The position numbers and the translations under genes are program-made. From Agelas oroides (lineage: Eukaryota; Porifera; Demospongiae; Agelasida; Agelasidae): a stretch of 64,000 bases of DNA. This document shows, one piece after another, positions 8,579-56,617 of the stretch. Each line of letters opens with the position of its first letter. The stretch's first letter is position 1. The notes below the pieces were generated by a model that was not told where the DNA came from, made no database searches, and worked only from the letters and a program-made list of their open reading frames with translations. The DNA lies in the NCBI GenBank assembly GCA_949130485.1, contig OX422192.1:9260008-9324007 (forward strand), read 5' to 3'.

Positions 8579-8629
8579 CTAGACAAAACGAAATGGCACA
8601 TGTGGCTAATACATACTATTCAAACTTAC

Positions 8630-9139: not shown

Positions 9140-9420
9140 TTGTCATATTATAATATATAATAATGTAATAGATAATGCATGGTAGCAATAACCAAGATTT
9201 ATAGTCAATAACCACCCAACTCTGAGGGTGGAGTCTGAGGACAAGGATGGTTATTGTAAACCATAAATCCCAGACTAACATGCATTATGCGTTATATTCT
9301 CCAACCTGATTAGTACTTGTAAACATACCAAGGTAGTTTACACTGTAAACAAAGTAGCTAATAGGAAACACCAACTTCCTGTGGTATAATTATGAAACAT
9401 AATCTACAACTTCTTGTCAG
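9140..9420. repeat. Dispersed repeat, related to 56790-56990 and 57180-57680
   Basis: Intronic sequence containing AATAGATAATGCATGGTA, an Ile-free AT-rich core and GTTTACACTGTAAAC. Similar blocks in the same order occur near 56790 and 57180. No coding potential. Element class unknown. Confidence 0.5.
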
Positions 9421-9562
9421 TAAATGGCAAATAATTATTACCTACCTGTTACTATAGAATTTTTATATTACCTCATTCTATTTTCATTTTATTCAACATT
9501 CATAGGAAATGATAGTGATGGAAATGCGCAAAGTTTTGCTCATTGCTGCACAGAAACATTAC

Positions 9563-10120: not shown

Positions 10121-10199
10121 CTATACAAGTATAATTATAAGGTAGGCCTTGTGAAGAGTGAAGAATCCTATTCTCTTAGATGCATTCTTGTCATCTTAC

Positions 10200-10273
10200 C
10201 TCCACTTCTTGTTGAGGAATGTTTTCCAGCTGATCCAAAGGGTCGTTATCTGGCAACTTGGGAGGAGGAGTTC
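10200..10273 (-). CDS. Short acidic linker exon (copy 1)
   Basis: A 74-nt exon (phase 1 to 0) encoding a Gly-Thr-Pro-Pro-Pro-Lys-Leu opening and an acidic end. It links the DEATH exon to the coiled coil; the copy 2 equivalent is 47627-47691. Confidence 0.6.
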
Positions 10274-10333
10274 CTGAGTTAAAGATATTAAATAAACACA
10301 ATTAATAATGGAATAAATCACTATTCAACCAAC

Positions 10334-10582
10334 CATGCTTTTGTGCTAGTTCAGAAGCAAGACATCTCATCCCCATCTCCACCAATGCCTGGACCACAGC
10401 AGACCATGTGGAAGTTGAATTTTTCTGCCACTCTTCAAGCATCTCAATACGACACCTCTGTAAAGTTGGGTAGTTTGCTTCGATGGTCTTCAATTTTGGT
10501 AGTTTAATTCCAAGGCAGAGGCCCAGCGGTATCCAATCAGTGACCTCATGCAGCTCACTTTCAAGGTCACGCACCTCAGGGA
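10334..10582 (-). CDS. DEATH domain exon (copy 1)
   Basis: A phase 1-1 exon encoding about 83 residues with DEATH-fold features: a [20 protein letters not shown] helix 1-2 region, [43 protein letters not shown]. The pattern Leu-x-x-Trp..Trp..Leu..AL...G...LA..L is that of death domains, which assemble signalling complexes by homotypic contact. It is flanked by an Ig exon upstream and an acidic linker downstream, as in copy 2. Assignment is by pattern only. Confidence 0.75.
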
Positions 10583-10676
10583 CTGAGCACAAAAAAGACA
10601 GTAATTTGTGAATGAGTGCTTAACAATGTGCTTAAAATTAAATTCTTTATGATAATTCCTGCTTGAATATCCTTAC

Positions 10677-10952
10677 CAACAGTGAGGCTGGCACACTGTG
10701 AAGTTTCACTCTCAGCACAGTTGGAGACCACACACCGATAGTAGCCTGCATTGCTCGCCTTGACACCCCTCACTTGAAATGTGCCACCTTCACCAGAGAG
10801 GTTCTGCCACCCATCCTTCTTCCCAAACTGTTTCCATTGCCACTGGTAGCTTAGAGGAAGTGTTCCAGTGGCTTGGACTGAGAATGCAACTGTCTTCCCT
10901 GGAATAGTGTCCTTCTGGCTTGTTGGCTGAGATGTAATCTTAGGAGGTTTGG
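10677..10952 (-). CDS. First Ig-like exon, before the DEATH domain (copy 1)
   Basis: A phase 1-1 exon of 92 codons: Ala-Lys-Pro-Pro start, GKTVAFSVQATG B strand without Cys, [18 protein letters not shown], and [12 protein letters not shown] at the F strand. It matches 48082-48366 in copy 2. Confidence 0.75.
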
Positions 10953-12629
10953 CTGCATGCAAGGATGAATGAAAATATTATGGTTAAGTACCACATATAA
11001 TGAGCATAACCACACCCCCAAGATGCTCATAAGAGGTTAGTGCTGCAGGTTTACATTGGCTTACCTTTGTTGAATGGCTCACTGCTTCACCCTTGAGGTT
11101 CAAGGGAAGAACCAGACATGAGTTGACCACATAACCTTTAGTACAGGCTTAAAAAAATAAAAGTACTGCCACGTACCTACTATTGTCTGCAAGGAAAGGG
11201 AGCCCATAAACTGTAATACAAGAAAAATAAAGTGCTGCCCAGTGTTGAGATCCGTTAGACCACCGCATATAGTAGCTTCATAGGCTTGAGCACTTTTATT
11301 GTTTACAAAGCACCTACTTCAGATCAGTTAGGTAGACATAACATTACTACTGCACAGCTGTATTAGTAAACGGAAAACGTGTGAGCAAACACGGAGACCG
11401 TTTGTATTTTTCTCATTTAGCACCACTGTCCCACACTTGTTGGTGAACCAAAGTTTCATTCCTAGGGTAGGTGCACCATGGCACTAACCAATATATGCAC
11501 TCAGATTTGAGATCCAATCCTTCCTCTGGCCTGTGTATTAACTTAATTTATTTATTTATATTAGTGGATCCTTTAATTCGCATCTCGGGATTTAATAAGT
11601 ACCACTTATAATTGAAACATAATAATTTGGCCTTAGCCTGATGCCCATTCCTTCAGAAAGGATGCCACCCTAATTTTATTAATGCTTTACTGTACTTTAT
11701 TAATGTAATAAAAACACATAAAACAACAGTGTGTCTTTTACAATAAAATTAATTTCTGCTTATCAACACACTCCACTGCTGAAGTATGAAGGGAATTCCG
11801 TGGGAGATCATTTACCACTCAAGGAAGTACAAACAAATTTTGTGGAGCGTATCTGGTTAGTCAATGGCTGCAAATATTTGTGGGGAAAATGTGTTCTTAC
11901 TACAAAGTTGATACAGTGGAACCCCACTTAACGGACACCACTCAGCAGCAGACACCCACAATATAACAGACAATTCCGAAAGTCCCGACTGTCCTTCCAT
12001 TCACTTCAATACTTAAGCACCCCCTGAATAGCGGACACCCCGCTACTCCGTATAACGGACAGTTTACGTGGTCCCAATTGTATGCAAACAATATTCAATG
12101 ACCCCAATTTAGTGGACACTCGTCAACCTCTTCAGCAAGATTGTCCACCATCACTGCTGGCCGGAGTTACAAACTTGACAATAGATTAGCGCTGTTGCTC
12201 GTAATACTAGCCTCTGCTTAGACTTCCCTGCCAGTGTACAGCAAAGGAAAGCTCTGAAAACATGGCCACGTTGTGCTCAACAGCCCAATTTATAATACGC
12301 CTACCGGAAAATATACCGGAAGCCCTGAGTTAGGGACACCTTGTATAAGGGACCAAATGTTGGTTCCCAATGGTGTCTGTTATAGAGGGGTTCCACTGTA
12401 TACTGTAGTTATCCTGTGAGCACAATGAAATTAAAGTTTGTTGCCATGCACAGAAAGTACAAATGAATGTTATAAACCACAACGTCATATAGTTAGCTAT
12501 CTAACAGGTTTATTATGTCAAATTCAGGGATGAGACTGCTTTGGGTAAAATAGTAAGGTGACGTTTCCAGACAGTGCAGTCTGACTCATGATGAACACTG
12601 TAACACTAACTACACTGGAAGGTACATAC
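10953..12629. other. Intron 1 of copy 1, noncoding apart from a MITE
   Basis: No gene seen. The stretch is AT-rich and holds the pogo-like MITE at 11914-12398. Intron 1 of copy 2 instead holds a minisatellite and a different MITE. Confidence 0.5.
11914..12398. repeat. pogo/Tigger-like MITE with TA target site
   Basis: About 485 bp with ends CAGTGGAACCCC and GGGGTTCCACTG flanked by TA on both sides. Subterminal blocks of the type TTAACGGACACC occur several times inside in both directions. Ends and TA target fit nonautonomous pogo/Tigger elements of the Tc1/mariner group. Confidence 0.8.
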
Positions 12630-13200
12630 CTCCCTCCTGATACAGAGGCCCAAAGTCAAACAGCCTGCTGTCCTTCCAGTGGGTCACAAAAGTAGAATAG
12701 TTTTCTGATGTCACAAGATGAAGTTCTGCTCCCTTCACTATTTTTCGACTAGGAGAAACAAGAAACAAGTCTAGGTGGACTTTGACAGTTAGTTTGTTGT
12801 TAGGCGATTCTGTCTTCAGATTACGTGAAAGCAAAGACTGCAGCTGTGGCTCCAGGACAGATGTCACCTCTTCAGTTGCAAGGACGAAGTTCTTCAAACA
12901 TGACCCAGAGGAAAAGACAACATGAAAGAGTGGGGACTGCTCAATATAGAACATCTCCACGTGGTAGACCCCATAATCAACCAAGATGGGAGCTATAGTC
13001 TTTGAAATCGACGAAAGCGTTGTACTGACGGGGGTACCAGAATGGCAGAAATTTAGGACCGGGCCTTCCTTAATGGATCCGATGTTCGTATTCTCTCCAT
13101 TCACCAGCACTCTTGTTCTCAGTAGAAACAAGTCATTATGGTAGCTGGTGTGGATGTTGAAGTTCGGATTGACGTCTATTTCGAAACGCTGCTTCGCCAT
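12630..13200 (-). CDS. N-terminal exon, unrecognised domain (copy 1)
   Basis: Starts with [10 protein letters not shown] and encodes 190 residues ending in phase 1. There is no signal peptide or membrane segment, so a cytosolic protein is likely. I do not recognise the fold. It mixes beta-like stretches ([31 protein letters not shown]) with Ser/Thr-rich parts and ends [11 protein letters not shown]. The paralogue at 50576-51143 is collinear, with clear conservation along its length, which supports real coding. The start is the first Met and lies about 0.1 kb from the ancestral divergent promoter. Confidence 0.75.
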
Positions 13201-33046: not shown

Positions 33047-33100
33047 TCATGATGGCTCCTGATAGCCACCATTCTCAGTTATAAAGAACTCATCTATAAA
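33047..33100 (-). pseudogene. Src-type C-terminal tail, out of frame
   Basis: In a shifted frame directly after the kinase, the sequence encodes Phe-Ile-Asp-Glu-Phe-Phe then a tail ending GGYQEPS and TGA. This resembles the C-terminal tail of Src kinases with its regulatory Tyr. A one-base indel at about 33101 would explain the shift; assembly error is possible. Confidence 0.55.
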
Positions 33101-36100
33101 CCTGCCACTGAAGAGTCTCAAATGTTGGTCGGTTTGCCGGCTCCTCACGCCAGCAGTCCAGCATGATGTTGTAAAGCTTATCGGGACAGCCTATGGGACA
33201 GGGCATGCGGTAGCCTCGCTCAAGGGCCTCTAATACCTGTTTATTGGTCATGCCAGGGTAGGGAATTAAGCAACCGTAGGTGATGATCTCATAAAGCACA
33301 ACACCAAATGACCATACGTCTGATTTGATGGTAAATCTGTTGTACATGGCAGCTTCAGGGGCTGTCCACTTGATAGGGATCTGTTCCCCTACGTGGCCTT
33401 CATAAATGTCTTCATCAATCACACGAGCAAGACTAAAATTGGCTATCTTACAGACCCGGTGTTCTCCGACCAAGATGTTGATTGCTTTGAGGTTTCGATG
33501 GATGTAGTTTTGCTCCTCAAGGTAAGCCATTCCAGCTGCCACTTGTTCTGACATGTCAACCAGCTGTGGAAGCTTCAGCGACCGACCTTCCCCTCGAAGG
33601 TACTCCAAGAGACTACCATGCTTCATAAGCTCTGTCACAATGTAAATAGGTTCCTCGCGAGTGCAGAGAGCATAGAGTCGGATCAGCTTTGGGTGGCGAA
33701 GCCTCTTCATCAGTGCAGCTTCCTGCAGAAACTTGTACGGAGACATGGTTCCTGGTTTGAGTGTCATTACAGCTACAGGAATGGTGTTGTTCCACACTCC
33801 CTTCCAGGCATCTTTGAACTTCCCTCCCCCCAGCCTCAGAATAAAACTAATCTGCCGTCGGTCAATCTCCCATTCTTCACTTGCATACTGTTTAGATAGA
33901 CAAGCCGTCTGAGGCTTCTCAGAGAGTAAGCAAGGGTAGCAAAGTTTGACATGCAGCCCATCTGCCTGCTGCTGATAGTAAGCCACCAAGTCCTGTATTG
34001 TCTTAAATGCGACACGGCGGGTCACAGAATAAGTGTTATTTTCATGCCTTTGGATGCGGTAGTGCCGGATTCTCTCCTTGTCACGGATTGAGAGGGAAAA
34101 ATCCCCCGGTGCTGTTTCCCTTTCTCGCACAAGATAGGAGCCGCACTGATTGAATATCATCATAAGTAGTCTCTCAGCATGCACACGGTTAATTCCACCT
34201 AAGTACCATCTTTGTGTGTGGTGAAGTGGTGTATGCATGCATTTAGATCATGTCAACTTCAAATGAGGACGATAACATTAGCACCAAATGAAATCCAGGG
34301 GAGCAGCAGTAACTGCCTTTGTGTAGGTAATACCGTATAGAGCTAAATCATCCGTGGATCTTTAATTTCGCGATTCTCATGACTTTTCAACAGTTCTCAA
34401 CGAAAAGCTTTGTCACACCACATACAGTTTTCATGCTCTGCGCAGGGTGTGAAAACTCTATGTCGCGTGACACAACTTTTCGTTGATAGACAACATCCCG
34501 GGGCTATGCTGCCGAATCTGCAAGGGACATTATCCAATGATATACCTTCGAAGTAGGCGTTGCTTTGCTGACAGTGGCCAGCTCAAGCGGATGACAGTGT
34601 GACAGTGCTTACAAGCTAGCGTTAGATAAACCAGGCTTGTATGCCACGCATATTGCGTGTGCGGCATACGCGTGCAGCAAATTTGCAAAATTATTTCAAT
34701 CAAATCTACCCAAACAAGCACAATTTTCAGGGCCCTCTGCTACAATGAAAATTATGCACCACCCCCAAGGCTCCACCCACATACTAACCTCATCAATACA
34801 CTAGCCAGCCCAGTCTACCCTGCACTAAAACTGACCTGCAAAGTCAGAAAGCTCAACCTACTACAGGAATCTTTTACCCCATTTTTGGGGAATAAGTCAA
34901 CAAACCTGATCCCTATCACTGTCCCTAGACTGGAGCCACATTCATGATGGCAAGAAAAAGGGCCTATATGGCTGAAATCCTTTTCCAGGGAACTGTGCGA
35001 CTGTAATATCTTCCTGTGTTTCCAGCAGACTCACTAACATTCCAACTCACTCTAGCTAGCTTTTTACAAGTATATAGATCATTACACAGAATTAGCCAAT
35101 CAACATCCTACATTGCCGTTGACTGAGTATACCACAAGTTCAAAAAACTAAGGCTGAGAGCTAATCTATGGCAACTGAACAGGGCTAAGAAATTCTATGG
35201 CAGTCATGATTACACAGAAAATTTGCAGCTTCAATCACTCCCACTCTTGCTTCACTTTCAAACACAATACATCTCAGAACTCACTCCTCAGCATCCAGAC
35301 TCCTCCGCTTGGTAACATGGTTGCTTGGGATGTAGCCCTCCTTGCCTGTATCCAGTGACTGAGCAAACCACCACTCTCCTTCATCTGTACTTATGATGTA
35401 TAGGAGGTCTCCCTTCTTGAAACTCAGCTCGTCATCCATCCAACTGTCAAAGTCATAAATCCCCACAAACACGGGGTAGTTCAGCTCCAACTATACCAGA
35501 GATATTTATAACACTGAATTTGGCAGCTGTACATGTATCCATCTAACTACTAGGGATGCATACTGAACAAAGTTTGGAGTTTTTGTATAGCAACTAAGGC
35601 CTCAGGCAATCTCTTAAACTAACAACAAAGCCACATAAGTCTTAAGTGTTAGTCAGAGCTTTGAAGTACACTGAACAACAGCTGCACTTTGGAAAAATGC
35701 ATGTCCGCAGTCAGACACTGTGGCATGTTGCATGGGCAAATCAAAGTACTGATTTTTGTCACATTTGGTATACGCAATGGTATCTCTTAGAGAGGCATTG
35801 TATCTGATGTCTAGTGCAGACAATAAAGTTAAAATAGCCACAAATTTAGTCATTGTAATTACAACTATCTCAGAGACAGCCTGTAGCACTGAATCACTTG
35901 CAAGGGCTATATTATCTGAAGACATTGCCCCTGGTGGTCAATGCTCATACAGTATATTTTGTTCAATTTTTGATGTAAATCTATACATCATGATGCAACA
36001 CTAGTTTACTACATGTATCTACATGTATTTCTATTTTACCTAGCAATGATGCTTATTTCATGCTCATATGACTAACATAACCTTGTTTAGTTTAACTGGA

Positions 36101-39100
36101 TTAGAATTCTTGCTACCAGCACAGTTACTGACAACACAGCAATAGCTCCCTTCATTGGACTTCTGCATAGGGATGAGTATTGTAGCACCATCACACCACT
36201 CTGTATCACACAGTTGCCACTCCACGCTCCCACCCTCTTCCTCAGCTGGCTTCCACTCCCACTGGTAGTTCAGAGGTTCAGTTCCAGTGGCTTGGATGGT
36301 GAACTTTGCAGGTTTACCTCGAACAACATCCTTTAAGTCATGTGGATGTGTGGTGATTCTGGGAGGTTCAGCTACATGCAGAAACAAAGCATGGGATATG
36401 AGATAACACACACTTCATACTCTAAGACACAAATTATAGAATTAACTCTTACCAACACTAGGTTTAGCTGGAGTGGTAACTTTTGAAGGCTCAGCTACAC
36501 ATAGAGAAGTAACAAACACATTAAGTGGGTGTAATGTACACTTTGCATTCTGGCTTTAGACAATGCTTACCGACACTAAGATTTGCTGGATTGGAAGTCT
36601 GGCTACCAACATCATTGCTGATAACACAGCGGTAGCTCCCTGTATGGGAATTTTCCACCTCGGGGATGATTAGTGTAGCACCATCACACCACTCGGCATC
36701 ACATGACTGCCACTTCCCACTCCGACCCCACTTCTTTTTTGGCTTCCACTCCCACTGGTAGCTCAGAGATGTTCCAGTGGCTTCAGCAGTGAATGTCAGA
36801 GGTTTGCCTGGAACAACACCCTTCAAATCTTGAGGATGAGCAGTGACTCTGGGAGGATCAGCTACATATAGAAATTAAAAATGTGAGTGTGATGTCTCTT
36901 ACAAACCATTAAAATTGAATTCTTACCAACACTGAATTGCTCAGAAGTGATTCTGGGAGACTCAACTATGTGTACAAAAAAAAAACACATGCATAATAGC
37001 GTGCGAGTGACAAACATTTCATAGTTATTACTGTAGTCGTGGAGACATAAGTTGTGGATCCTTACCAACACTAAGTAATTCAGCTGATTTGGAAGTGTGG
37101 CTACCAGTAGAGTTGCTAATAACACAGCGATAGCTCCCTTCATTGGACTTTTGTGTACTTGGGATGGTTAATGTAGCACCATTAAACCATTTTGCATCAC
37201 ATGGCTGCCACTCTGGCCTCCACTGCCACTGATAGTTGAGGGGTTTTGTTCCAATAGCTTGGATGGTGAGCTTTACACATTTCCCTTGAGTAGTGTCTTT
37301 CAGTTGAGAAGTGATTCTGGGAGGCTTAGCTACATGTACAGAAGCAAAGAGTGATAAGCAATTCATACTAAATGTTGATCGGGATTCGTACCAACACTAA
37401 GTTTAGCTGGATTGGAGATCTGAAATACTTACCAACAACAATAAATGCTGGATTGGAAGCCTGGCTACCAGCACAGTTGCTGACAACACAGCAGTAGTGC
37501 CCTTCATTGGATTTCTGCACACTGGGGATGGTTAGTGTGGCACCATCACACCACTCTGCAGGACACGGCTGCCACTCTCCACTCCCAATCCCCTCAGCTG
37601 GCTTCCACTGCCATAAGTAGCTCAGTGGCTCTGCACCAGTGGCTTGGATCATGAACTTTGCAGATTTTCCTTGAACACCATCCTTTAGCTCTTGTGGATG
37701 AAAAGTGATTCTTGGAGGTTCAGCTACATATGTAGAAATAAAATCATTCTACCTCATTCTCAGGCTCCTCCCCAGCTTCTGTCTCATAATGTACATTATA
37801 TGTGTATACTATGCTACAATAGCTGGAGAGGAGCCTGCATGGAAACAAGGCTAATATTCACTATGTAATATTATCTTTCAGTAAAAGTACACTCACCAAC
37901 AGCAACTTCAGCTGGTTTGGAAGTTTGGGTACCAGCACAGTTGCTGACAACACAGCGGTAGCTCCCTTCGTTGGACTTCTGCAAACTGGGGATTGTTAGC
38001 ACGGAACTGTCCACTCCTGCAAATGTCTTCCCATCACACAGCTGCCACTCGTCATCATTAAAGGCTGACTTCCACTCCCAATGGTAGCTCAAAGGTTGTG
38101 TTCCACTGCCTTCAGCGGTGAACATCAGAGGGGGGCCTGGAACAGCATCCTTCAAATCGTGTGGATGACTGGTGATCCTCGGAGCCTCAGCTACATAGAA
38201 AGAAAATGTGGGAGTGACATAGCCTCGTTCCCAGATTTTATCTTGCCCGTGGAGAAAAATCGGGAGAAGGCCTGGTACCAATACTACGTCACGGACCGGA
38301 AATGGTGGACTCGGTTAGTATGTAATGTGTAGCCTCGTTCCCAGGCCTTCAATCACAGCTAACGCGGTGGAAGGCCTGGTAAAACTCCTACGTAGAATGA
38401 CGTCAGGTGGACGTAAGGGTGGACGTAGGACTTTTGGAGGCGTGGTACTTTCAGTCTAGGAACTACGCTAAAGCAGGCGCTATCGCGGACAGGCGTTCAA
38501 CAACGACAGAACAGTCTGGTGTTACTTCTAGGGTTCAGGATGCCGCCTGACAGATGCATAAAGGACGTCCGTGAAGCCAGGGAATAAATGTCCTTTTGTG
38601 TACATGTATTCCCTGGCTTCAGACGTCCTTTATGCATCTGTCAGGCACATGTACTGCTCTGTCGTTGTTGAACGCCTGTCCGCGATAGCGCCTGCTTTAG
38701 CGTAGTTCCTAGACTGAAAGTACCACGCCTCCAAAAGTCCTACGTCCACCCCTTACGTCCACCTGACGTCATTCTACGTAGGAGTTTACCAGGCCTTCCA
38801 CCGCGTTAGCTGTGATTGAAGGCCTGGGAACGAGGCTACGTAATGTGGACTCGGTTTCGTAATGCAACGTGTAGCCTCGTTCCCAGGCCCTGCGCATTCG
38901 TCGCTTGCAGTACGAAATGGCCGACTTGCATAATGACGTCACGTACGAGGGCCGGGGTAAAACTTCAGCAGCTGGCCATAGAGAATGTATGGGGAATTCC
39001 AAACGCGTGTTGAGAAGATCCATCAGTTTGCTTCGCGGAAAGAGCGATCGTCTCCATGCGCTAATATTTGCTACCCAAAGAGTTGGTGTATTCATAAGTG

Positions 39101-42100
39101 AGTCCAATGGCCGTATTGCGTGCAGTGCGCGGCGTTAATTGACTGGAAAGCTGCCGATGGTTCAGCTCATGATGTCTACCAATATGCTATTTCTGGAAAA
39201 CGGCTAAGACCTCTGTCTTGAAACTATTTGTAAGCCACCTTTTTATATATATTGTGTACAATATTTCTGTTTTGTGCAATGGGGAGGGTGGGAAGACATG
39301 AATAATCTGTATGATTTAATTAGTTGCAGCTGCTGGGATACTCTTGTACTTCATGTGGGTATGCAACTTTTTCTTGGACAGAGTAACCAGAAAGTAGACT
39401 GTGTAGCCTCTTTCTCAGGCCCCCACCTGGCTTTCTGTTGCTTGCTGTATGGTGGTAAGGGACAGAAAGCTGGGTGGGGCGTGCATGGGAATGAGGCTAC
39501 TGAGACTGTGTGTAGCTGAAGGTTTGCAGCAGGGTATCACATGTAGCATTGTTCCCAGACCTTCTCCAAGTCAACGTTCTGATTATTTGCAGCACGGAGA
39601 AGGCCTGGGAGATTTTCACATGATTGATATGACGGAGGCAAAAGGGTCAAGAGATGTCAAGGTCTTTTTGGTAGTTAGTGTCTGTTGTTGTTGTTGTTGT
39701 TGTTCAGGGCAAAAGAACGCATGCATGGGTAAAACACATCACTATGAGTGATGTTCAATTTACACATTCCCCTCCATACGCTTTCACAGGGCCTTAAATT
39801 GATGCTCTCCTTAGATGCCGATGAAGGCGACCATGAACTGTGCAGTGTGCAGACCCAAGAGACAATCCTCGAAGAGCTGCTTCTGTCCAAGAAGGAGCAC
39901 TGAACTTGCATGATCAGTGTTATACTGTTGTTCTGTACGTACTACCATTTTAGTCTTATTATATCTCCAAAATATGACATGGTACAATGTAGCTGAACCA
40001 TGGCTAAATCATGGAGGTGTGCATTATGTGGGCGGGGCAGCGGGTTCTGCGCCTTCTACACGATCTATTCAAGTGAAGTAAGTTATCTCTGACGCTGACT
40101 CTAACTTGAGGTAGCTGTGAGGGCAGTTGTAGCGATTGTAATTGAGACTCTTGAGCGTGTGCGTAGCTTTGCATGCTAGCCGAAACGTTGCGCAACGTCC
40201 GAAGCGCATAGGAACTATTCGGAGGATAGAACATTCTGCTGTGGTCAATGCATGCGAAAAGAGCGGCAACAGCTACTATTGATCACAAGTAGGTGGGATA
40301 CAAAATCCCCATACATTCTCTATGGCACGCCGTCGAAGTTTTACCCCAGCCCTCGTACGTGACGTCATTATGCAAGTCGGCCGGCCATTCGCGCAGCGCA
40401 GAGGGCCTGGGCGGGTTGGTGTAAAACCTGGACTCTGGACTGGACTATGGACTGGACTATGGACTGATTTTTGGACTGAGTTTTGGACTGAGACGCTTGA
40501 TATTACCTGATGTAAGTGGCTAAACTGTTGTTTAAAGGGCCCTGGGCATTGGCAAAGGCATCTTAGACCATGTGACATCATATGCATGCAGCAAGAGAGT
40601 GGCTGTGCATGTGGATTGATATCAGCATTGCAAGGTCCGAGACCCATGTTGGTACACCTACTGTAGCCAAGGCACATTTGACAATTAGTGTAGTCTATAT
40701 TCATGCAACAACAGTGTGGCTGTTGGTGTGGCTCAGGTTGCAAGATAATTGCTTAAAAGCATTGTAGGTTATGGTATGTGGCTGTAAACAGACAACAACC
40801 TTCTTATAGCATGGTATGATTGGTCCATGAGTGGTATAGTCACAGTTCAGCCTTTTGACCATCAGCCCATAGAAATCGACCCAGGTCCTCAGAGATCTTG
40901 ATAAACGCACTACCTCCGCTCTTGTGAAATACCAAGAGATACTCATGCATGTCTTAGTCTCGTGCCCAGACAACTTTTCGCCGAGCGGGAAAGTAGTCTG
41001 GTGAACTGCATATACCGTTTTGGTTCCAATATTTTGAAACTACCGTGACGTCACGTCAACTGGGTTGTAAATTCAAAGCGCTCTACTAGAGCGCTTTGAA
41101 TTTACACTCCTAGACAGCCTACTCGTGCTCCTTTCGATAGATACAATAGCCTAGTCTACTCACGGCAGCCAGGGTTGCCCGATCAATGTCCATTTCGCTA
41201 GTAGATCGTTGGCACGCAATGTGGAATCACGGGTGTTTCATTCGAGACATAGCGCGTAATTAGATAAACACGCAAACATTTCCGGTACACTACAAGTAGC
41301 CATGGCAGCCTTCGCGTCGTTCAGGCACCATGTTGCCAAGGCACCACTCTTGCAACCACGCATGGTATAGCAAATATCTACTTACCTAGATCTGATTCGT
41401 CCCATGCAAATCACCATGGACACATCCGCGCAGCAGCTGCTACGGGCTAAGTGAACTGCGCATGCTATAATTATCACCCTACGCAAACCGTCCACGCGAA
41501 GGAGCTGTATGGTTTCCTCCCCCACTAAAAGCTGAAAGTTTTTACAATTACAATTTATGCGCAAAAGTGTAGTAAGAAGGCGGTACTTCACTTCCCAATG
41601 TATTATAGTCAACTTATAATTTTTTGGGGGGAGTAGAGAAAGCATAAAATACCATCAAAATCAGTTAGCTTGCTGGGTGTGTGGAAAGGCACGGAAGGAG
41701 TATGCACAGTGTAAATAAAAAAGTACAGAAATTTGTTGTGGCAGACATTGGCACCAGCCAGAAGGCACACTCCAACACCTTCCAATTGGCACTGCAGCAG
41801 ATGTAGACTTGACTGCCAACATCCGAGAGACAGACGGCACTGTGTCTTTTTCAGGGGATCCCTCAGAGACAGACGGCACTGTGTCTTTTTCAGGGGATCC
41901 CTCTCCTGCACAATATGCAATTTTTTTTAGCATTATCTCTAAGAGGAGGGAGGCAATGACAGCACAAAAACCTTTTGGTAGGCCAAGAGAGAATGGAAAG
42001 CATGCAGCATACACTTACCATCAGTCCTGCCAGCTGCATGGCTAACTCTACGTCTCCAGATTTTCTCAGCCTGTGTCCAATTTCCCTCTCGGATCTGCAA

Positions 42101-45100
42101 TGCAAGCTGTGTCAGCACATTGTTGACCAACATTGCACCATCAACATCTCATGTGCCACCACTTGGAGAAGAAAATAGTTGGCATTCCAGTGCTGAGGGC
42201 TGCTCCAACTACAAAATCGAGAGGGACACTCAGACCATCATGTTGCATGTACCCGGTCCCCCATTCTACAGTAGTTAGAAACTGTCTCCAGTATTCAACT
42301 ACATAAGGTATAATTTTTTCCAGTCAAGGGGTGGTATTTAGGCCACTACCTGTTGAATATAAGTTTCTCATTCCCTGCACACAAGCTTTTTTGGGACCCG
42401 CTTCACCGGCCCATTATCGCCATAATTGTCAATCTCTTGCTCTGTATGCGTCAGTACTGTTGAGTTGCAGTCAGTTTGAGCATATTGCAAACCAGCTAAA
42501 AGATATCTCCTTCCTGAACACATCGGGAGTGCTCACCCCACAGATGCTATTATATTTCCTGATTATTTCATAGGAGGTGGGGTCTCTCAAGTCCAGGAGC
42601 CAAACTGTTTGCGGTCAACGAATGTTATAATGGTAATGGCCACCTGCTCACATGAACTTCAGCGAAAGTGCCTGATGATAAATTAATACTCAACAAAATA
42701 GTGTGTTTACAACTGGGCTTGGCAACACTGCTGAGTAAAGAGGTGTGGCTTATCATAGTGTTCCATACACCACTAAAAAGTAAAAAAAGCACAGCAAAAT
42801 TTTAGCCTAAGACATAATGTTACTAACTTCTGCCAAAGTCAGTCACAAGCAGCAGTGTGGTCATGGGGTCAAAGAAGATTTTAGTCAAAAATATTGACCC
42901 CAGGCAGAAAATAGTCTGGGCACGAGACTACCCAGGCGCAAACGTAAATCTGCGCCTATGGAAGTGACCACATCTTGCCTCATACCTTAGTATCATATTC
43001 TCATTACAATTTGTGCTTTCTTGTCTCTTTTAGCATATTAGATGCACAACTCAACTTCAGTATATCAAGTTAATAGCTACTGTAGTGAACTTACATTGAC
43101 TCACCAAGGTGCCAACTTGAACAGTGTGTATCCACCACCAAAAAATTCTAAGTAGCCCTACTTCACATGTGCCACCGAGTACAAGCCTAGAGCTTCACAA
43201 ACGACTGTTTTTCATCCTTCACAAAACTTCTTCTTCGTCCAGAGAGAGCCCAAAACACAACTTAAAACGCGTGCCACTCGCGGAGATGTACCTTGGCAAC
43301 TGAACCACCGATTTTCACCGGGTTTGCGCCATTCGCCACAACATGGACAACAGCTTCAGCTGCCTCTGTCCACCATGCGCTAGAAGTCACGCGCTTGGTG
43401 TGGGAGGAGTTTGTTTAAAAACCGGAAACATCGCGGAAGCGCGTTGCTATGCAGTTGCCATGCGGTACGAAAAAATTTCAATTACAACTTTTTGTCCATG
43501 CGGCCGTTGTAATGAAACACCCGTGGAATGCAATCTTCGATGACGTCAGCGTTAAATTAGAAAAGAACAATGCGCCAGCATTCCGGCGCACTTGAACGAA
43601 AACGGAATAGGCAGTTCACCAGACCCTTTTTTCCGGCGGGCGCGCGCGAAAAATGCGGTCTGGGAACGAGACTATGCATGTCTATGCTCACTCTGCCCTC
43701 TTGAACCGTTCTTGGGACAGAACCTAAGTCTCAGGTAACCTGTTGTCAATTACAAAGCACACAGAGAGCAACAGAACCTCTTCTATAGCTTAGATAACTG
43801 ATTCGGAGTGGGAAATAGTCGTTGTGGAGCTCCGCAAGGGTCCAAAACTCAGTCCAAAAATCAGTCCATAGTCCAGTCCATAGTCCAGTCCAGTCCAGAG
43901 TCCAGAGTCCAGGTTTTACACCAACCCGGCCTGGGTTCGTTCATCACGTGATGTGTGCCACAGCCGTAATTTTACGTCACACCAGATATGGCCGCGCTGT
44001 GTTGCAGCATGCATTGGTTGTAGAGATAACCACAAATGGAGTGGGAAGAACCTGAAACAGGTCACGCGCGTACGATAGACTACACTAGTAAACTCAAGCT
44101 GAAGAAGACGAGGAGTCGAAATCCAGGGTCGATCTAGTAACACGATGTGGCAAGGTATCTGAATATAGACGTCTACTAGCCAGCTAAACATGGCAGCTTG
44201 TGCTGTTTCGCTGCCGAGACGTTTAGCACTTCGGTAAGTTCGCACACGAACCATTACTGTGATCTCTGTGGGCCTCTTTCAACGCTAAACTGCTACAGCA
44301 ACAACAACAACAGCTACGAAGGATGTGTAGACGTAAGTGGAAGGCGTTATGCGTGTACGTCGACTGAGGAAAGCAGCAGGCTGAGGGCAAGCGCGTCGCT
44401 CCGTGTCAAAGTAAGTGTCTGCACTCGGCCCACTATCCTCAGGAGGCTCAGAGCCAGGGCTGAACGGCTTAGATAACTTGTACATACCTACAAGTAGTCT
44501 TGCCATCTGTTTCTCCCTCCTTGAGGATGGTGGCCCGAGTGCAGAGACTTGTTCTGACACGGAGTGACGCGCTTGCCCTCAGCCTGCTGCTTTCCTCAGT
44601 CGACGTACACGCATAACGCCTTCCACTTAAGTCTACATATCCTTCGTTAGCGACTTGGTACTTGCGAAGTCCGTGGCTGTTGGCAAAACGCCTAGGCAAG
44701 CTTTACTATTCGATCGCTTGCTGTATTGGCCGGGGTCTCATTACTTTCACGCCGTTTCATGTCCCCTGTCACATGACCCACCGAGGGGGTGGGGCCAGGG
44801 TCCCGCCGCATTACGTCGCACTTACACCACATTGCCACAAGTGGCAGCGCATAAGGTGTTCGTCACTTTTTAAAGCAGAAAAAAAGAAGGAAATAAAACC
44901 CATTTCCCGTCCCTACCCCTAACCTTAACCCTATAACCTGTACACTGAGCCCTAACCATTAGACCACAAGCAATTTCGAACGACCATGCACACTTTTCCG
45001 TCTAATATGTACAGCTCAACCGTACAAGTGCCATACTACACTATGCATGCGCAATACATGCTCCACCCACACATATCACGTGAGGGGGCATCAAACGACG

Positions 45101-48100
45101 TGTAAGTATTGAGAACCGTATTGGCCGCATATTGCGTGGGCACATTGCCATCATTACAAAACCGAGTCCACATTACGTACTAACCGAGTCCACCATTTCC
45201 GGTCCGTGACGTAGTATTGGTACCAGGCCTTCTCCCAATTTTTCTCCACGGCTGCGAGATAAAATCTGGGAGTGGCCTGCGAACGAGGCTAGGAGTGACA
45301 CACTTCACACTCTAGCCATTAACTGTTGGATTCTTACCAACACTAAGTTCAGCAAGTTTGGAAGTTTGGTTACCAGCACAATTGCTGATCACACAGCGAT
45401 ACCTCCCTTCATTGGACTTCTGCACACTAAGTACGGTTAGTGTGGAACTGTCTGCTCCTGGGAATCTCTCCGCATCGCATGGCTGCCACTCACTATCATC
45501 CATAGCTGGTTTCCACTCCCACTGGTAGTTCAGAGGTTCTGTTCCAGTGGCTTCAGTAGTGAACATCACGGGTTTGCCTGGAACAACATCCTTCAAATCT
45601 TGTGGATGACTGTTGATCCTTGGAGGCTCAGCTACACAGAAGCAAACAAAAAAGTGGGAATGACATGCACATACTTCACACAATTGTTGAATTCTTACCA
45701 ACACTAAGTTCAGCTGGATTGGAGGAGTCTTTGCCAGCACAGTTGCGGATGACACAGCGGAAGCTCCCTTCATTGGACTTCTGCACACTGAGTATGGTTA
45801 GTGTGGAACTGTCAGCAGCTGGAAGCCTCTCCACATCACACGGCTTCCACTCGCCATCATCAACAGCTTGCTTCCACTCCCATTGGTAGTTCAAAGGTTC
45901 TGTTCCAGTGGCTTCAGCAGTGAACATCACGGGTTTGCCTGGAACAACATCCTTCAACTCTTGTGGATGACTGGTGATCCTTGGAGGCTCGGCTACATGT
46001 AGAAATGTATGTGCAGGAAGCAAAACATGTTTTTGTTATCTTACACTAGGTATCAGTGTATGAAATTCTTACCAACACTAAGTTGAACGGGTTTGGAAAT
46101 CACAGTACCAGCACAGTTGCTGATGACACAGTGGTACCTCCCTTCATTGGATTTCTGCACACTAGGGATGGTTAGTGTAGCACCATCAGACCACTCTGCT
46201 GGACAGAACTGCCACTCCTCACTCCCACTCTCCTCAGCTGGCTTCCATTGCCAGTGGTAGTTCAGCGGGTCTGTTCCAGTGGCTTGGACAGTGAATGGGA
46301 CAGCTGTTCCTGGGACAACTTTGTTCAGGCTTTTGGGCTGGCTAGTTACCTTGGGTGGTTCAGCTAGACAAAACAATGTTGTTTGGTTGAAACATGAAGT
46401 AAAAAAAAACCCTTCTTATTCAAAGCTTACCAAGTTGCGCATGAATCTGTGCTTTGAGAGTCTCCCTCGTCTTCATCTCTTTCACTGTGGCCTCCTTCTC
46501 TAACTCTGCTTGCTGTTTCTCATGCTCAGCTTCCTGCAACCTGTGCTCTAGTTTAGCAATCTGAGGTGCCAGTATGAGTAAGTCTAACAGCTGTTCTGGA
46601 GTACTGGCGACTTGCTGGTGTTTCTGTAGTTCACTCTGAAGTCGAGCTGCTGTAGCTTCCTTCTCCTGGAGGGAACTCAACAAAGTTTCGATTTCTTCAT
46701 GGAGGCGAATGATATCTGTATTACAGGCTTCAATTTGTTGTGACTTCAGCTCTGATTCATTTATCATATCGGTTAGCTGTTGCTATGGAGAGAAATATTT
46801 ATCAAAAGTGTCAATCACACATACAACAGCTATATAGCTGTTTGGATAAGGGTTGCACAAATGAATGCCAAAAGTTTATTATCACAAGCAACAATATAAG
46901 TGCTGCATCTAGTTTGAATACATAAAACTAGTTTTGAAATCACTTCTTCTTCATGCAGTGTGGGATATAGTACACTACTCTATTATGTTACCTGCATCTC
47001 TTTTTGATCAGAAGTTAGAATCTGCACAAGCTTGCTGAGTTGTTCCTTTTCACTGTTGTAAGAACAGGCCAGTTCCTCCTTCTCCCTGTGCAACTGTAAC
47101 ACCTCCTTGTGTTTCTTCTTCAGCTCCTTTTGAGATCTTGACATTACTTCTTGCTGGGTTTGGACTTCTTGCAGGGCAGATTGAAGTTGGCATTCCTTCT
47201 TTTGTAGCTCCTCTTTCAATCTCTTTATCTTTATCTTCTTCTTTTCAATTTTCTCTTGAAGAAGCTGGTTATAGGTCTCATCTTTCCCCTGCATCTTAGA
47301 CAGCAGTTCACACTCTCGTTCTTTGAATTTCAATTTCATTTCAATACTGTTCTTGTCTTGAGCAATCTTTTGCATGTTTTCATGCAACTCCGTAAGCTTA
47401 GTCACAACTTCACTTTTTTTCTCATTTTCTCTGGCTTTGGACTCCTGTGACTGTCTTAAACGCTCCTCGGCATCCACCAATTTCCTGCGGTCTTGATTAA
47501 AACCACCTCTGTGCTCCTGAATTTCTTTATACAGTTTGGATGCAGTAGTCGCCTACAATTCAAGTAAGACCTTGTGAACCAACTTATAGTTTTTCATTAG
47601 TACATGCATTCTTTTCATGCACTTACCTCCTCTTCTTCTTGAGGAATATTTTCCAAAGGGTCAATATCCAGCAGCTTCGGAGGAGGAGTTCCTGAGTTGA
47701 AAGACAAAGCAAATGTATTAATACAATATTATTCATGGATGAATCACTATTCAACCAACCATGTTTTTGTGCTAGTTCAGAAGCCAGACGTCTCATGCCA
47801 ATTTCCACCAATGCCTGGACCACAGCAGACCATGTGGGAGTCACTTTCTTCTGCCACTCTTCAAACATCTCAAGACGACACATCTTGAGATCATTCGGAT
47901 AGTTCTTTTTAATAATCTTCAGCTCTGGTAGTTTAATCCCAAGGTAGAGGCCCAACGGTATCCAATCAGTGACCTCATGAAGCTTACTTTCAAGGTCACG
48001 TACCTCAGGGACTGGGCAGAGAGAAGGCAGTAATTTGTGAGTGCTTTGTGAGGTGCTTAATTAAAATAGGTACATGCTTACCAACAGTGAGGAGAGAACA

Positions 48101-51100
48101 CTGTGAAGTTTTGCTTCCAGCAGAGTTGGAGACCACACACTGATAGAAACCTGCATTACTCCCCTTTACCTCCACCACTTGAAGCGTTCCACTGTCACCA
48201 GATAGGTTCTGCCAGCCATCCTTCTCACCCTTCTTTCCAAATTCTTTCCATTGCCACTGGTAGCCCAGAGGCTGTGTACCAGTGGCTTGGACTGAGAATG
48301 TAACTGCCTTCCCTGGAACAATGTCCATCTGGCTTTTGGGCTGTGACGTAACTGTGGGAGGCTTGGCTGAAAGAAGTAGTGAAAGAATAAGGACGGACAA
48401 CCTCTAATTAAAATGTAATGCAACTGAAATGTCAAGTGCAATGATTCTTGGTCTACACAAAGCACACAAAGGGTTGGAAAGGTATGGTACTAGCCTCGTA
48501 CCCAGGATCTTGGTGGGCGGAACCAGCTATAGGTTGAAAATTTCTCACCATTAGGAAACCCTACACATTTTCCTGCAACCAAAATTTATACCACTAACAC
48601 TAACACCTAATAGACTCTCCCAGACTCTCATGTCCACAGCTTTCATCACTTGCAGAATGTGATGAAAGCTGGGGAGTGATGAAAGCTGGGGACATGAGAG
48701 TCTGGAATGAGGCGACCTAATGGGGTCGTTACTAAAACCTGGAACGAAACAGAAGGATGGCAGAACATTCCGTCCCGTTCCGCCTACTAAAAATACAGAA
48801 TCATCAGCTAATTCCGTCTTGTGCTTGGCAAAAATCTTCGCTGCCTTCTGCTATTTGTGAGCATGCAGCTTGGTAGGTAGTTTAGTGAAAGCCAAGGTAA
48901 GTAGCCATGCATGCTACCAAAAGTTTAGAAGCAGTGAATAAGTGTGATGCTGAACAGCTACTATCGGACCATACCCGGCGACTAAGCACTTACTTCGGCA
49001 TTCTCTACGCTGTCTGGAGAAAGGACGATGCATGAAAAGCCAAGCTACATGCTCACAGACAGCAGAGGCCCCTCGTATTTGTACGGATCGTGCTGGCTAT
49101 TTGGTTGAGTGAAATAATTTATGGCGAATGTAAGAAACCTACGAAAGCAGAGGCATAGATGGCAGAAGTAAGTCACCATGCATGCATGTTAAACACACAG
49201 CTGTTCAACTTGCACACTCAAAGCATAAAGCTAGCAGTAGAATCTTTTGTCATCACCATCTTCTTACTTTTACCACGCGCGATACAATCACCATCTTCTT
49301 ACTTTTACCACGCGCGATACAATCACCATCTTCTTACTTTTACCACGCGCGATACAATCACCATCTTCTTACTTTTACCACGCGCGATACAATCACCATC
49401 TTCTTACTTTTACCACGCGCGATACAATCACCATCTTCTTACTTTTACCACGCGCGATACAATCACCATCTTCTTACTTTTACCACGCGCGATACAATCA
49501 CCATCTTCTTACTTTTACCACGCGCGATACAATCACCATCTTCTTACTTTTACCACGCGCGATACAATCACCATCTTCTTACTTTTACCACGCGCGATAC
49601 AATCACCATCTTCTTACTTTTACCACGCGCGATACAATCACCATCTTCTTACTTTTACCACGCGCGATATAATCACCATCTTCTTACTTTTACCACGCGC
49701 GATATAATCACCATCTTCTTACTTTTACCACGCGCGATATAATCACCATCTTCTTACTTTTACCACGCGCGATATAATCACCATCTTCTTACTTTTACCA
49801 CGCGCGATATAATCACCATCTTCTTACTTTTACCACGCGCGATATAATCACCATCTTCTTACTTTTTCCGGGTTCTAGCATAGATATATCATCTTCACAT
49901 GGTAGACCCCATAATCAACCAAGGTAAGTGAAATAGTGTTGGAAATTGACGAAAGCATTGTGCTGATGGTGCTACCAGAGTGGCGGAATTCAGAACTGGA
50001 CCCTCGTATTTGCCTTCCTTGACGGACGTGATCTCCATATTCTCTCCACTATTTATGGTTTTATGCACCTATCAATGTTATGCCCCACCTCCCCCCACCA
50101 GAGGGGGGTGGGGATAAGGGTGGGGATTTGACCACTTTTCCATCTAATTCCCCACCCCTGGGGTTAAGCTCTTAGGTCAAATAGCCCCTGGTATGCCCTT
50201 TCCCTGACCAGGGGAGCACCACTGATTTCTTTTCTGCAGGTATGAAGAATGCTCAGAAAACCTATGTTCTCGAAGGACGTCCTTAAACAGAGCTCTCACA
50301 CATCCGCTGTTGAAATGTCACCTCCTGGTAGGTTCATAGGTCGGGTGTGCCCTAGTAGCGACACTAAAACACTCCTACCTACGCTGTCTCTTGTCGAACT
50401 ATACTTTCAGGCACATAAAGGAACACGAATATCGTGGAATATAGTATACAGAAAGATCAAATGCCCCATGGGTGGGGTCAGAGTTACCGGTCAAACCCCC
50501 GCCCTAATCCCCACCTCGCTCTGGTGGGGCATAACATTGATAGGTGCATTAGTAACGACCAAATATGGCACATACCTTCCTCCTGGTACAGAGGTCCAAA
50601 ATCAAACAGCTTGCTGTGCTTCCAGCGGGTTGCAGAGGTGGAGCAATTCTCCGCTGTCACAAGATGGACTTCTGCTCCCTTTGCCAGTTTTTGACTAGGC
50701 GAAACAAGAAACAAGTCAAGGTGGACTTTGACTGTTAGTTGCTGAGGCGATTCTGTCTTTAGATTACGTGAAAGCAAAGACTGCAGCTGTGGCTCTAGGG
50801 CAGATGTCACTTCTTCAATCGCAAGGATGAAGTTCTTCAAACATGACTCAGAGGAAAAGACGACATGAATGAGTGGGGACTGCTCGTAATAGAATGTATT
50901 CACATGGTAGACCCCATAATCAACCAAGGTAGATGAAATAGTGTTGGAAATCATCGAAAGTGTTGTACTGAAGATGGTACCAGAATGGCAGAAGTTCAGG
51001 ACCGGGCCTTCCTTGACGGACCTGATCTCCGTATTCTCTCCATTCACCAGCACTCTTGTTCTCAGCAGAAAGAAGTCGTTATGGTGGCTGGTGTGGATCT

Positions 51101-51143
51101 CAAAGTTCGGATCGACGTCTATTTCGAAACGCTGCTTCGCCAT
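33047..51143 (-). CDS. Ig-DEATH-coiled-coil-Ig array-SH3-SH2-pseudokinase gene (copy 2)
   Basis: Exons in coding order: 51143-50576, 48366-48082, 48011-47760, 47691-47627, 47552-46992, 46782-46431, 46363-46073, 45992-45699, 45631-45338, 38190-37897, 37723-37433, 37329-37066, 36965-36927, 36861-36571, 36494-36453, 36371-36082, 35490-35285, 34209-33090. Every junction is phase-compatible: Ig and DEATH exons are 1-1, coils 0-0 and 0-1, the last Ig 1-0, SH3 0-2, SH2-kinase starts with one nucleotide. Ig exons therefore shuffle freely while the ends are fixed. There is no signal peptide or membrane segment, so the product is probably a large intracellular scaffold combining death-fold, Ig and phosphotyrosine-reading modules. 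The single-gene model rests on phase and order; two adjacent genes remain possible. Confidence 0.65.
33090..34209 (-). CDS. SH2 plus Src-like tyrosine pseudokinase exon
   Basis: The exon opens WYLGGINR, the start of an SH2 domain, with the pTyr-binding Arg in SYLVRERE and the helix Arg in INRVHAER kept. The kinase domain follows (about residues 115-370 of the exon). It has the Src-like fold landmarks [19 protein letters not shown] and [13 protein letters not shown]. Catalytic residues are lost: the glycine loop reads GGGKFK, VAIK is VAVM, HRD is HRN and DFG is NFS. The C-helix Glu (FLQEAALM) is kept. It should bind phosphotyrosine but not transfer phosphate. The frame ends at TGA soon after FETLQWQ, short of the usual tail. 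Confidence 0.85.
34210..35284. other. Intron between SH3 and SH2-kinase exons
   Basis: No exon recognised. It is bounded by a GTGAGT donor and an AAAG acceptor. It contains scattered repeat-like sequence. Confidence 0.5.
35285..35490 (-). CDS. SH3 domain exon, Src type (copy 2)
   Basis: Encodes [15 protein letters not shown], the WWFA pair and GYIPSNH, an SH3 domain. The exon ends ...SLDAEE in phase 2 and joins WYLGG of the SH2 exon, reproducing the AEEWYFG junction of Src kinases. The acceptor is phase 0 and fits the last Ig exon (36371-36082), the only full-length Ig exon here with a phase 0 donor. Confidence 0.85.
36082..36371 (-). CDS. Last Ig exon before SH3 (phase 1-0)
   Basis: An Ig-like exon with Ala-Glu-Pro-Pro start, [10 protein letters not shown] strand without Cys, [11 protein letters not shown] and [10 protein letters not shown]. 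Its donor AAG|GTTATG is weak but gives phase 0, as needed to enter the SH3 exon. Confidence 0.75.
36453..36494 (-). CDS. Collapsed Ig micro-exon
   Basis: 42 nt: Ala-Glu-Pro-Ser-Lys-Val at one end and Pro-Ser-Val-Gly at the other, with normal acceptor and GTAAGAGTT donor in phase 1-1. The Ig core is gone. Confidence 0.55.
36571..36861 (-). CDS. Ig-like exon (copy 2)
   Basis: 97 codons, phase 1-1. [24 protein letters not shown] and [11 protein letters not shown]: the second F-strand-side Cys (SNC) is replaced by Asp here, unlike its neighbours. Confidence 0.75.
36927..36965 (-). CDS. Collapsed Ig micro-exon
   Basis: 39 nt, phase 1-1, encoding only the start (Val-Glu-Ser-Pro-Arg-Ile-Thr) and end (Ser-Val-Gly) of an Ig exon, with intact splice signals. 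Confidence 0.55.
37066..37329 (-). CDS. Ig-like exon (copy 2)
   Basis: 88 codons, phase 1-1, slightly short: Ala-Lys-Pro-Pro start, [19 protein letters not shown] and [11 protein letters not shown] (SNC replaced by SNS). Confidence 0.75.
37433..37723 (-). CDS. Ig-like exon (copy 2)
   Basis: 97 codons, phase 1-1, with [16 protein letters not shown] and [11 protein letters not shown]. Just downstream (37387-37415) lies a second, stray Ig 3' end with its own GTACGAATC donor-like site, a trace of another exon. Confidence 0.75.
37897..38190 (-). CDS. Ig-like exon (copy 2)
   Basis: 98 codons, phase 1-1: Ala-Glu-Ala-Pro start, [40 protein letters not shown]. It is separated from the next upstream Ig exon by 7 kb of transposons. 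Confidence 0.75.
38331..38838. repeat. Long near-perfect foldback, TAGCCTC family
   Basis: A 508-bp element that is almost one hairpin: two arms of about 230 bp are near-perfect complements around a short centre. Ends are TAGCCTCGTTCCCAGGCC and complement. Flanks TGTAATGTG and CGTAATGTG are an 8/9 target duplication. Confidence 0.85.
38872..40425. repeat. TIR element with gene-like interior
   Basis: Inverted arms at 38872-39003 and 40293-40420 share CGACTTGCATAATGACGTCA and CCATAGAGAATGTATGGGG. The interior differs from nearby repeats and includes a short exon-like stretch at 39790-39903. The right arm has lost the outer TAGCCTC end. A small TAGCCTC-type repeat lies inside at 39404-39499. 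Confidence 0.55.
39404..39499. repeat. Small TAGCCTC-type MITE
   Basis: Ends TAGCCTCTTTCTCAGG and GGAATGAGGCTA. AGACTGTG occurs next to both ends, offset by 3 bp on the right. Confidence 0.5.
40955..43674. mobile_element. 2.7-kb TIR element, TAGTCTCGT ends, 9-bp duplication
   Basis: Ends TAGTCTCGTGCCCAGAC and TAGTCTCGTTCCCAGAC (inverted) continue as related arms of about 100 bp sharing TCTGGTGAACTGC. TGCATGTCT flanks both sides exactly. The interior is noncoding, with a directly repeated block at 41826-41902 and an internal end-like GTCTGGGCACGAGACTA at 42914-42930. No transposase found. Confidence 0.75.
43845..43920. repeat. GTCCA-rich simple repeat, inverted partner at 40428-40492
   Basis: Runs of AGTCCAGTCCATAGTCC. 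The complement (GGACTGGACTATGGACT) is at 40428-40492, so the two bracket the 2.7-kb element. Confidence 0.7.
44315..44652. repeat. Foldback repeat
   Basis: Inverted arms of roughly 120 bp (ACGTCGACTGAGGAAAGCAG and complement) around a 100-bp spacer. No coding role supported. Confidence 0.6.
45338..45631 (-). CDS. Ig-like exon (copy 2)
   Basis: 98 codons, phase 1-1, [29 protein letters not shown] and [11 protein letters not shown]. Nearly repeats the next exon upstream. Confidence 0.75.
45699..45992 (-). CDS. Ig-like exon (copy 2)
   Basis: 98 codons, phase 1-1, with [29 protein letters not shown] and [11 protein letters not shown]. Close duplicate of the exon at 45338-45631. Confidence 0.75.
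46073..46363 (-). CDS. First Ig exon of the C-terminal array (copy 2)
   Basis: 97 codons, phase 1-1, following the coiled-coil exon: Ala-Glu-Pro-Pro-Lys-Val-Thr start, [35 protein letters not shown]. Orthologous in position to 8285-8578. Confidence 0.75.
46431..46782 (-). CDS. Coiled-coil exon 2 (copy 2)
   Basis: 117 codons (phase 0 to 1) of heptad-rich sequence ([40 protein letters not shown]). Coiled-coil by composition and periodicity. Confidence 0.7.
46992..47552 (-). CDS. Long coiled-coil exon 1 (copy 2)
   Basis: 187 codons, phase 0-0, open throughout, unlike the copy 1 equivalent. Extended coiled coil ([40 protein letters not shown]). Likely drives dimerisation next to the DEATH domain. 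Confidence 0.75.
47627..47691 (-). CDS. Acidic linker exon (copy 2)
   Basis: 65 nt, phase 1 to 0: [18 protein letters not shown] followed by acidic residues. The phase change here separates the 1-1 exon set from the coiled-coil set. Confidence 0.65.
47760..48011 (-). CDS. DEATH domain exon (copy 2)
   Basis: 84 codons, phase 1-1: [69 protein letters not shown]. Six-helix death-fold pattern with the buried Trp residues and the C-terminal LA..L..KH. Expected to bind another death-fold protein. Confidence 0.78.
48082..48366 (-). CDS. First Ig exon, before DEATH (copy 2)
   Basis: 95 codons, phase 1-1: [29 protein letters not shown] and [11 protein letters not shown]. An Ig next to a death domain in a cytosolic protein recalls MALT1, but no paracaspase is present. 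Confidence 0.75.
48617..48706. repeat. Small foldback in intron 1
   Basis: CCAGACTCTCATGTCC and its complement bracket repeated GATGAAAGCTGGGGA blocks. Confidence 0.55.
49253..49868. repeat. 35-bp minisatellite
   Basis: About 17.5 copies of a 35-bp unit (TCACCATCTTCTTACTTTTA then CCACGCGCGATACAA). The last six or so units carry GATATAA instead of GATACAA. It lies in intron 1 of copy 2. Long frames through it are artefacts of the period. Confidence 0.95.
49893..50047 (-). pseudogene. Duplicated fragment of N-terminal exon
   Basis: The stretch from CACATGGTAGACCCCATAATC to TTCTCTCC repeats the middle of exon 51143-50576 with many changes. It has no start or splice context and is a relic of local duplication. 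Confidence 0.65.
50064..50548. repeat. Harbinger-like MITE with TTA duplication
   Basis: 485 bp with inverted ends of about 70 bp (TGCACCTATCAATGTTATGC and complement), flanked by TTA on both sides. GGTGGGG-rich arms. Noncoding. Confidence 0.75.
50576..51143 (-). CDS. N-terminal exon, unrecognised domain (copy 2)
   Basis: 189 codons from [20 protein letters not shown] to YQEEG, ending in phase 1 at GTATGT. Collinear with 12630-13200. No signal peptide or transmembrane segment. Fold not recognised. The start Met is supported by the paralogue and by the short distance to the divergent NDUFAF5 start. Confidence 0.8.

Positions 51144-51337: not shown

Positions 51338-56617
<5,280 letters not shown>

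Follow-up and report, generated by a model that had tools for sequence, protein, structure and literature searches.

A predicted sponge fusion gene joining a death-domain adaptor front to a Src-derived pseudokinase end

The MALT1 paracaspase combines DEATH and Ig domains in a cytosolic scaffold. In Amphimedon, 357 TRADD-N proteins have been described (Kaur et al. 2021, PMC8195603), and the available part of that paper reports that Death-like domains occur there with TRADD-N and that the ends vary, SH3-LRR, SH2 and S/T/Y kinase being listed among them; beta-propellers are named among the ends of TRADD-N proteins and are proposed as recognition parts. The usual SH3-SH2-kinase architectures are covered in the accessible part of a further paper (PMC8662651), and in excerpts of a third (PMC6208332), genes that contain DEATH, Ig and Kelch domains are listed with those that change in two sponges following microbial signals. 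A sequence-only reading of the DNA studied here proposed one gene joining DEATH, Ig, coiled-coil, SH3, SH2 and pseudokinase domains, and held that no described protein was known to have this order. Our searches of the open-access literature indeed found no description of the order, but Amphimedon Death/TRADD-N proteins with SH3, SH2 and kinase ends have been described (PMC8195603, in the part available). Thus, the fusion appears to be an exchange of tails within a kind of family that is already known.

The window, meaning the whole stretch of DNA analysed (64,000 nucleotides, C10:9260008-9324007), was studied alongside searches of the genome (259 Mb, 141 contigs). All 18 exons of the proposed minus-strand unit were found, from 51143 to 33090. 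Their 17 junctions are all phase-compatible, and together they give a 1932-residue frame with a single terminal stop (hyphens in motifs mark splice sites):

50576..51143, minus strand: exon 1, domain A, 189 aa, start ATG at 51143
48082..48366, minus strand: exon 2, Ig domain (IgN), phase 1-1, Pfam
47760..48011, minus strand: exon 3, DEATH domain, phase 1-1, Pfam and profile comparison
47627..47691, minus strand: exon 4, linker, phase 1-0
46992..47552, minus strand: exon 5, coiled coil 1 (CC1), phase 0-0, heptad periodicity
46431..46782, minus strand: exon 6, coiled coil 2 (CC2), phase 0-1, heptad periodicity
46363-46073, minus strand: exon 7, Ig1, phase 1-1, Pfam
45992-45699, minus strand: exon 8, Ig2, phase 1-1
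45631-45338, minus strand: exon 9, Ig3, phase 1-1, Pfam
38191..45337: 7.1-kb intron with inverted repeats, Ig3 to Ig4
38190-37897, minus strand: exon 10, Ig4, phase 1-1
37723-37433, minus strand: exon 11, Ig5, phase 1-1
37329-37066, minus strand: exon 12, Ig6, phase 1-1
36965-36927, minus strand: exon 13, mini-exon (shrunken Ig, 13 residues), phase 1-1
36861-36571, minus strand: exon 14, Ig7, phase 1-1
36494-36453, minus strand: exon 15, mini-exon (shrunken Ig, 14 residues), phase 1-1
36082..36371, minus strand: exon 16, last Ig (Ig8), phase 1-0, donor AAG-GTTATG (GAG-GTTAG in most family members)
35491..36081, minus strand: intron Ig8-SH3, 591 bases
35285..35490, minus strand: exon 17, SH3, phase 0-2, acceptor TATAG-TTGGAGC, Pfam
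33090..34209, minus strand: exon 18, SH2 and Src-type pseudokinase, ends at stop codon, Pfam

The two junctions that the sequence-only reading named are exact: 36082/35490 is phase 0, and 35285/34209 is phase 2 and yields AEE-WYLGG. The mini-exons (these two, 7302-7250 in the second copy described below, and one on C22 near 212500) each combine the opening and closing pieces of an Ig exon, in phase and with plausible splice sites. Intron 1 holds an array of ~35-base units and an adjoining broken partial duplicate of exon 1 (49252-49866, 49884-50062). Elsewhere in the window, frames at 29374-31760 (plus strand) and about 3900-2000 (minus strand) resemble retrotransposon polymerase/integrase and reverse transcriptase, and those at 52219-54222 (plus strand) an NDUFAF5-type methyltransferase.

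Pfam, run on nine exon frames, recovered Ig, Death, SH3, SH2 and tyrosine-kinase domains, and a further scan recognised Ig1 and Ig3. The Death match, a domain that TRADD and TRADD-N proteins also have, scores 24.1 bits against a cut-off of 22.6. A profile of nine family copies compared with solved death domains matched THOC1 best (E 1.3e-4), followed by TNFRSF25 (0.013), PIDD (0.04) and FADD (0.24). The coiled-coil call rests on heptad periodicity. No stretch of 19 residues in the protein exceeds 1.48 in Kyte-Doolittle hydropathy, and the B-strand cysteine is absent, by eye, from all nine Ig domains; both features are consistent with the intracellular scaffold that had been suggested.

Exon 1 had no Pfam match. 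Pfam TRADD_N (PF09034) matched none of 53 members and nothing across the genome, the control likewise matching nowhere, and domain A may be TRADD-N-like, by fold only. Its Ser89, preceded by Gln, is at least 90% conserved and lies between strands 78-86 and 89-96, which allows comparison, by position only, with the TRADD-N uS motif in the beta2-beta3 turn. A profile search of proteins with domain A gave 406 matches; the 120 listed are exon-sized and nearly all from ENA contigs, and one protein among them is 98% identical with an identical intron start. Domain A exons at 88-98% are present in other assemblies.

Across the genome, domain A matches at 59 places, some of which are fragments of a single copy, and 35 were taken as strong copies (E 4.4e-55 or better). 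Kelch was counted as downstream when it shared the strand of the copy, lay no more than 25 kb away and came ahead of the next copy; the pairing used 67 of 134 Kelch matches, those omitted lying far from the 35 copies by eye. On this count, 25 strong copies have Kelch downstream, 2 have Src exons and 8 have neither. Two of these eight were read, and both look incomplete: the C12 copy is fragmentary, and the C20 copy has the second exon only, followed by other frames. The fetched members share the exon order A, Ig, DEATH, coiled coil, Ig, one of them with four Ig exons ahead of DEATH. In all seven members read to their end, the last Ig exon is followed by a single-exon Kelch frame (one matching only 245 of 298 positions), and the three frames given to Pfam were confirmed. 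The window gene has this family's arrangement from domain A to the Ig array with shared phases (phases checked in copy 2). No match to a C-terminal Kelch exon was found in the window or in the 20 kb to its left; this result and the Kelch count of the family both argue for module replacement. The fusion gene is thus probably a member of a lineage-expanded death-domain adaptor family whose Kelch end was swapped for a Src SH3-SH2-kinase end. That the Src exons are instead an alternative end beside a more distant Kelch exon is highly improbable; the frequency of Kelch tails would favor it, and the negative Kelch search speaks against it.

All nine gene ends compared have a phase-0 donor after the last Ig exon ((G/A)AG-GTTAG in seven, GAG-GTAAG in one and AAG-GTTATG in the window gene), and all six Kelch acceptors examined are phase 0. 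The SH3 exon has no ATG and no N-terminal MG.. SH4 part, and an in-frame stop lies directly upstream. Bases 391-422 and 451-563 of the Ig8-SH3 intron match the family intron after the last Ig exon at 76-94%, in six of eight family stretches (two blocks in five, one in the sixth), and the match stops 28 bases short of SH3. The C4 and C22 stretches showed no match to this intron, a reversed-sequence control gave 0 matches, and on C17 neither the surroundings of the SH3 exon nor the sequence ahead of it matched family introns. The intron match, together with an SH3 exon that lacks its own start, places the Src segment in an old family intron.

A rival reading divides the locus into two genes: an Ig/DEATH gene that would stop once the last Ig exon is complete, and a Src-like gene whose start would lie at the SH3 exon or ahead of it. 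Read-through past the last Ig exon reaches a stop within 5 codons in six of the nine ends and after 12 codons in the other three (in the window gene it would add VMLVI), and one Src gene on C17 possesses its own start and SH4. However, the startless SH3 exon with its upstream stop, the family intron between last Ig and SH3, and a donor retained where Kelch follows make two genes unlikely. No AATAAA or ATTAAA lies within 600 bases of the exon end, which carries little weight, as eight of nine ends have neither. Comparison with the family thus lends support to the single gene of the sequence-only reading, which would be spliced across this junction.

The tail is a Src-type SH3-SH2-kinase module by Pfam. 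In the window kinase, M, N and N stand in place of the catalytic Lys, the HRD Asp and the DFG Asp (VAVM, HRN, NFS), in line with the predicted pseudokinase. The change of DFG to NFS is common to both fused copies and therefore probably arose before their split; the changes of Lys to Met and of HRD to HRN are confined to the window copy. The FLVR arginine of SH2 and much of the SH3 sequence are kept. The window copy's C-tail is frameshifted after LQWQ; copy 2, C17a and C17b keep the tail tyrosine region in frame. Contig C17 carries Src genes with intact catalytic residues and SH3 and SH2-kinase exons split as in the fusion; in one of these genes a single exon encodes SH4 together with SH3 (MGNHCPVC...) and the following exon SH2-kinase. 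The window kinase shares 83% identity with C17:7507236 and 68% with the copy 2 kinase, and in a five-tail tree the two fused sequences are set apart from three C17 sequences with a split support of 97.

Other Src-like sequences lie in the same genome. The Src SH2-kinase exon at C17:7508339-7507236 has no SH3 match before the next Src gene, whose SH3 it may share by alternative splicing. Src-like SH2-kinase pieces also occur among family genes at C10:8.70-8.79 Mb (C10:8701043-8709863, 8749166-8750751 and 8785741-8787327). These were not counted as further fusions: the two that come after family genes have a Kelch exon ahead of them, and some are broken. They have their own losses (HRN, NFR, DFM, VAVN), are nearer the Src type at C17:2.63 Mb by eye, and have no SH3 match nearby.

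The second Src-tailed copy, copy 2, lies 38 kb away in the same window and has the same exons:

7250..13200, minus strand: copy 2 front part
13200-12630, minus strand: domain A
10952-10677, minus strand: IgN
10582-10334, minus strand: DEATH
10273-10200, minus strand: linker
10120-9563, minus strand: CC1, one in-frame stop
9002-8651, minus strand: CC2
8578-8285 and 8215-7913, minus strand: two Ig exons
7302-7250, minus strand: shrunken Ig exon, phase-0 donor
1099..1304, minus strand: extra SH3 exon
C10:9257534-9254758, left of the window: final Ig, SH3 and SH2-kinase exons

Eight upstream junctions of copy 2 are identical in phase to those of the window gene. Its last-Ig donor (AAG-GTTAGT) and SH3 acceptor are phase 0, the acceptor being of the kind seen in the window gene, and its SH3 donor, read by hand, is phase 2. 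Because the same exons and phases recur, the 18-exon arrangement is more than chance. Within copy 2 (window 1-1304, C10:9257245-9261311), one SH3 lies in the middle of the Ig array and a second before SH2-kinase, which suggests that part of the gene was duplicated internally. The retrotransposon-type frames at about 3900-2000 (minus strand) also lie inside this copy.

Selection was tested on five tails and on four front halves (six exons, CC1 and most Ig exons left out). The front half has w of 0.50 on the window branch (<1, p 0.0012) and 0.55 in copy 2 (p 0.0015). For the tail, w is 0.142 in the background, 0.163 on the shared stem and 0.403 in copy 2 (<1, p 6e-6). The window tail has w of 0.575, which differs from the background (p 4e-7) without falling clearly under 1 (p 0.058 for the tail, 0.54 for SH2 alone and 0.12 for the kinase alone), so decay of this tail is possible. 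Among all GT sites, the fusion donor GTTATG ranks at the 69th percentile, against the 97th to 98th for the family form, on a matrix of 17 sites that is biased because most are Ig phase-1 donors. The weak donor, the frameshifted C-tail and the relaxed tail count against full function of the window copy. They favor, along with the three lost catalytic residues, a reading in which the origin is the same and the window copy is decaying, its main product being an Ig/DEATH protein with the short VMLVI end, or nothing functional. Against decay stand the frame that stays open over 1932 residues, the constrained front half, and the retained FLVR arginine and SH3 sequence. We regard decay as possible but less likely than not; it shares its origin with the explanation we prefer, and the odds of the two overlap.

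We consider it likely, judging from the sequence comparisons, that this is one gene made by C-terminal module replacement and that its product works as a cytosolic scaffold. The recipient would have been a family member built as A, Ig, DEATH, coiled coil, Ig array and Kelch. Src SH3 and SH2-kinase exons, without the SH4/unique membrane anchor, would have been copied into the intron between last Ig and Kelch, and the pre-existing phase-0 donor would then have spliced to a new acceptor just 5' of SH3. In the protein, domain A and DEATH may seed a death-fold signalling complex or recruit one, and the coiled coil would multimerise it; the Ig array would provide spacing or recognition. The enzymatically dead Src end could read proline-rich (SH3) and phosphotyrosine (SH2) ligands where its sisters use Kelch, and the scaffold may have an immune role. 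The in-frame stop in copy 2 CC1, the C4 and C22 stretches lacking the intron match and a TRADD-N likeness by fold only count against this explanation, as do the weak donor, frameshifted C-tail and relaxed tail of the window copy and the chance that its last Ig exon is read on to a stop.

Plant NLRs carry integrated decoy domains. By analogy, the dead Src module might be an integrated sensor or bait, the recognition end having been swapped from Kelch to Src; we think this improbable. If it were true, tampering with Src-type proteins, or phosphotyrosine signalling through them, would feed straight into death-complex assembly. The module swap can be seen with donor-gene relatives, recipient family, receiving intron and sister genes in one genome. 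This is a comparatively well-supported candidate fusion gene. It suggests how, in an adaptor family, a phosphotyrosine reader can take the place of a propeller while the splice phases stay as they were; it also suggests that the Src part turned pseudokinase within the fused line. If the gene is expressed, death-fold assembly would be tied to tyrosine signalling in an early-branching animal.

A full-length protein search returned no protein with Ig, Death and kinase together among the domains given for the best 120 of 194 matches, and a front-half search none among those given for 48 matches. Top matches in both were kinases or Ig proteins, the full-length list being headed by unnamed long kinase proteins (P0001-P0008, P0010, P0011), a number of which carry SH2 or SH3. 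Within the reach of these searches and of the open-access papers, the architecture appears to be new and its kind known in outline. The gene resembles the Amphimedon Death/TRADD-N proteins, as the available part of their description presents them, in its Death-like domain, putative TRADD-N (here by fold), lineage expansion and variable C-terminus. It differs in that Death comes before TRADD-N there and A before Ig and DEATH here, in having no Pfam TRADD_N match, and in an Ig array and full Src module order that this part of the source does not describe. With MALT1 it shares DEATH with Ig domains, but the domain order is different, and Pfam matched no caspase-like domain in the frames scanned (all but Ig2, Ig4-Ig7, the linker and the mini-exons). 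Like the Src-family kinases (the C17 genes; human SRC), it has the SH3, SH2, kinase order and the intron between SH3 and SH2; unlike them, it has no SH4/myristoylation part, has lost three catalytic residues, has a truncated C-tail and carries an Ig/DEATH front. With its Kelch-ended sister genes it has in common domain A, Ig, DEATH, the coiled coil and the Ig array, as well as the intron and its phase-0 donor, and it differs from them in bearing SH3-SH2-pseudokinase in place of the Kelch propeller.
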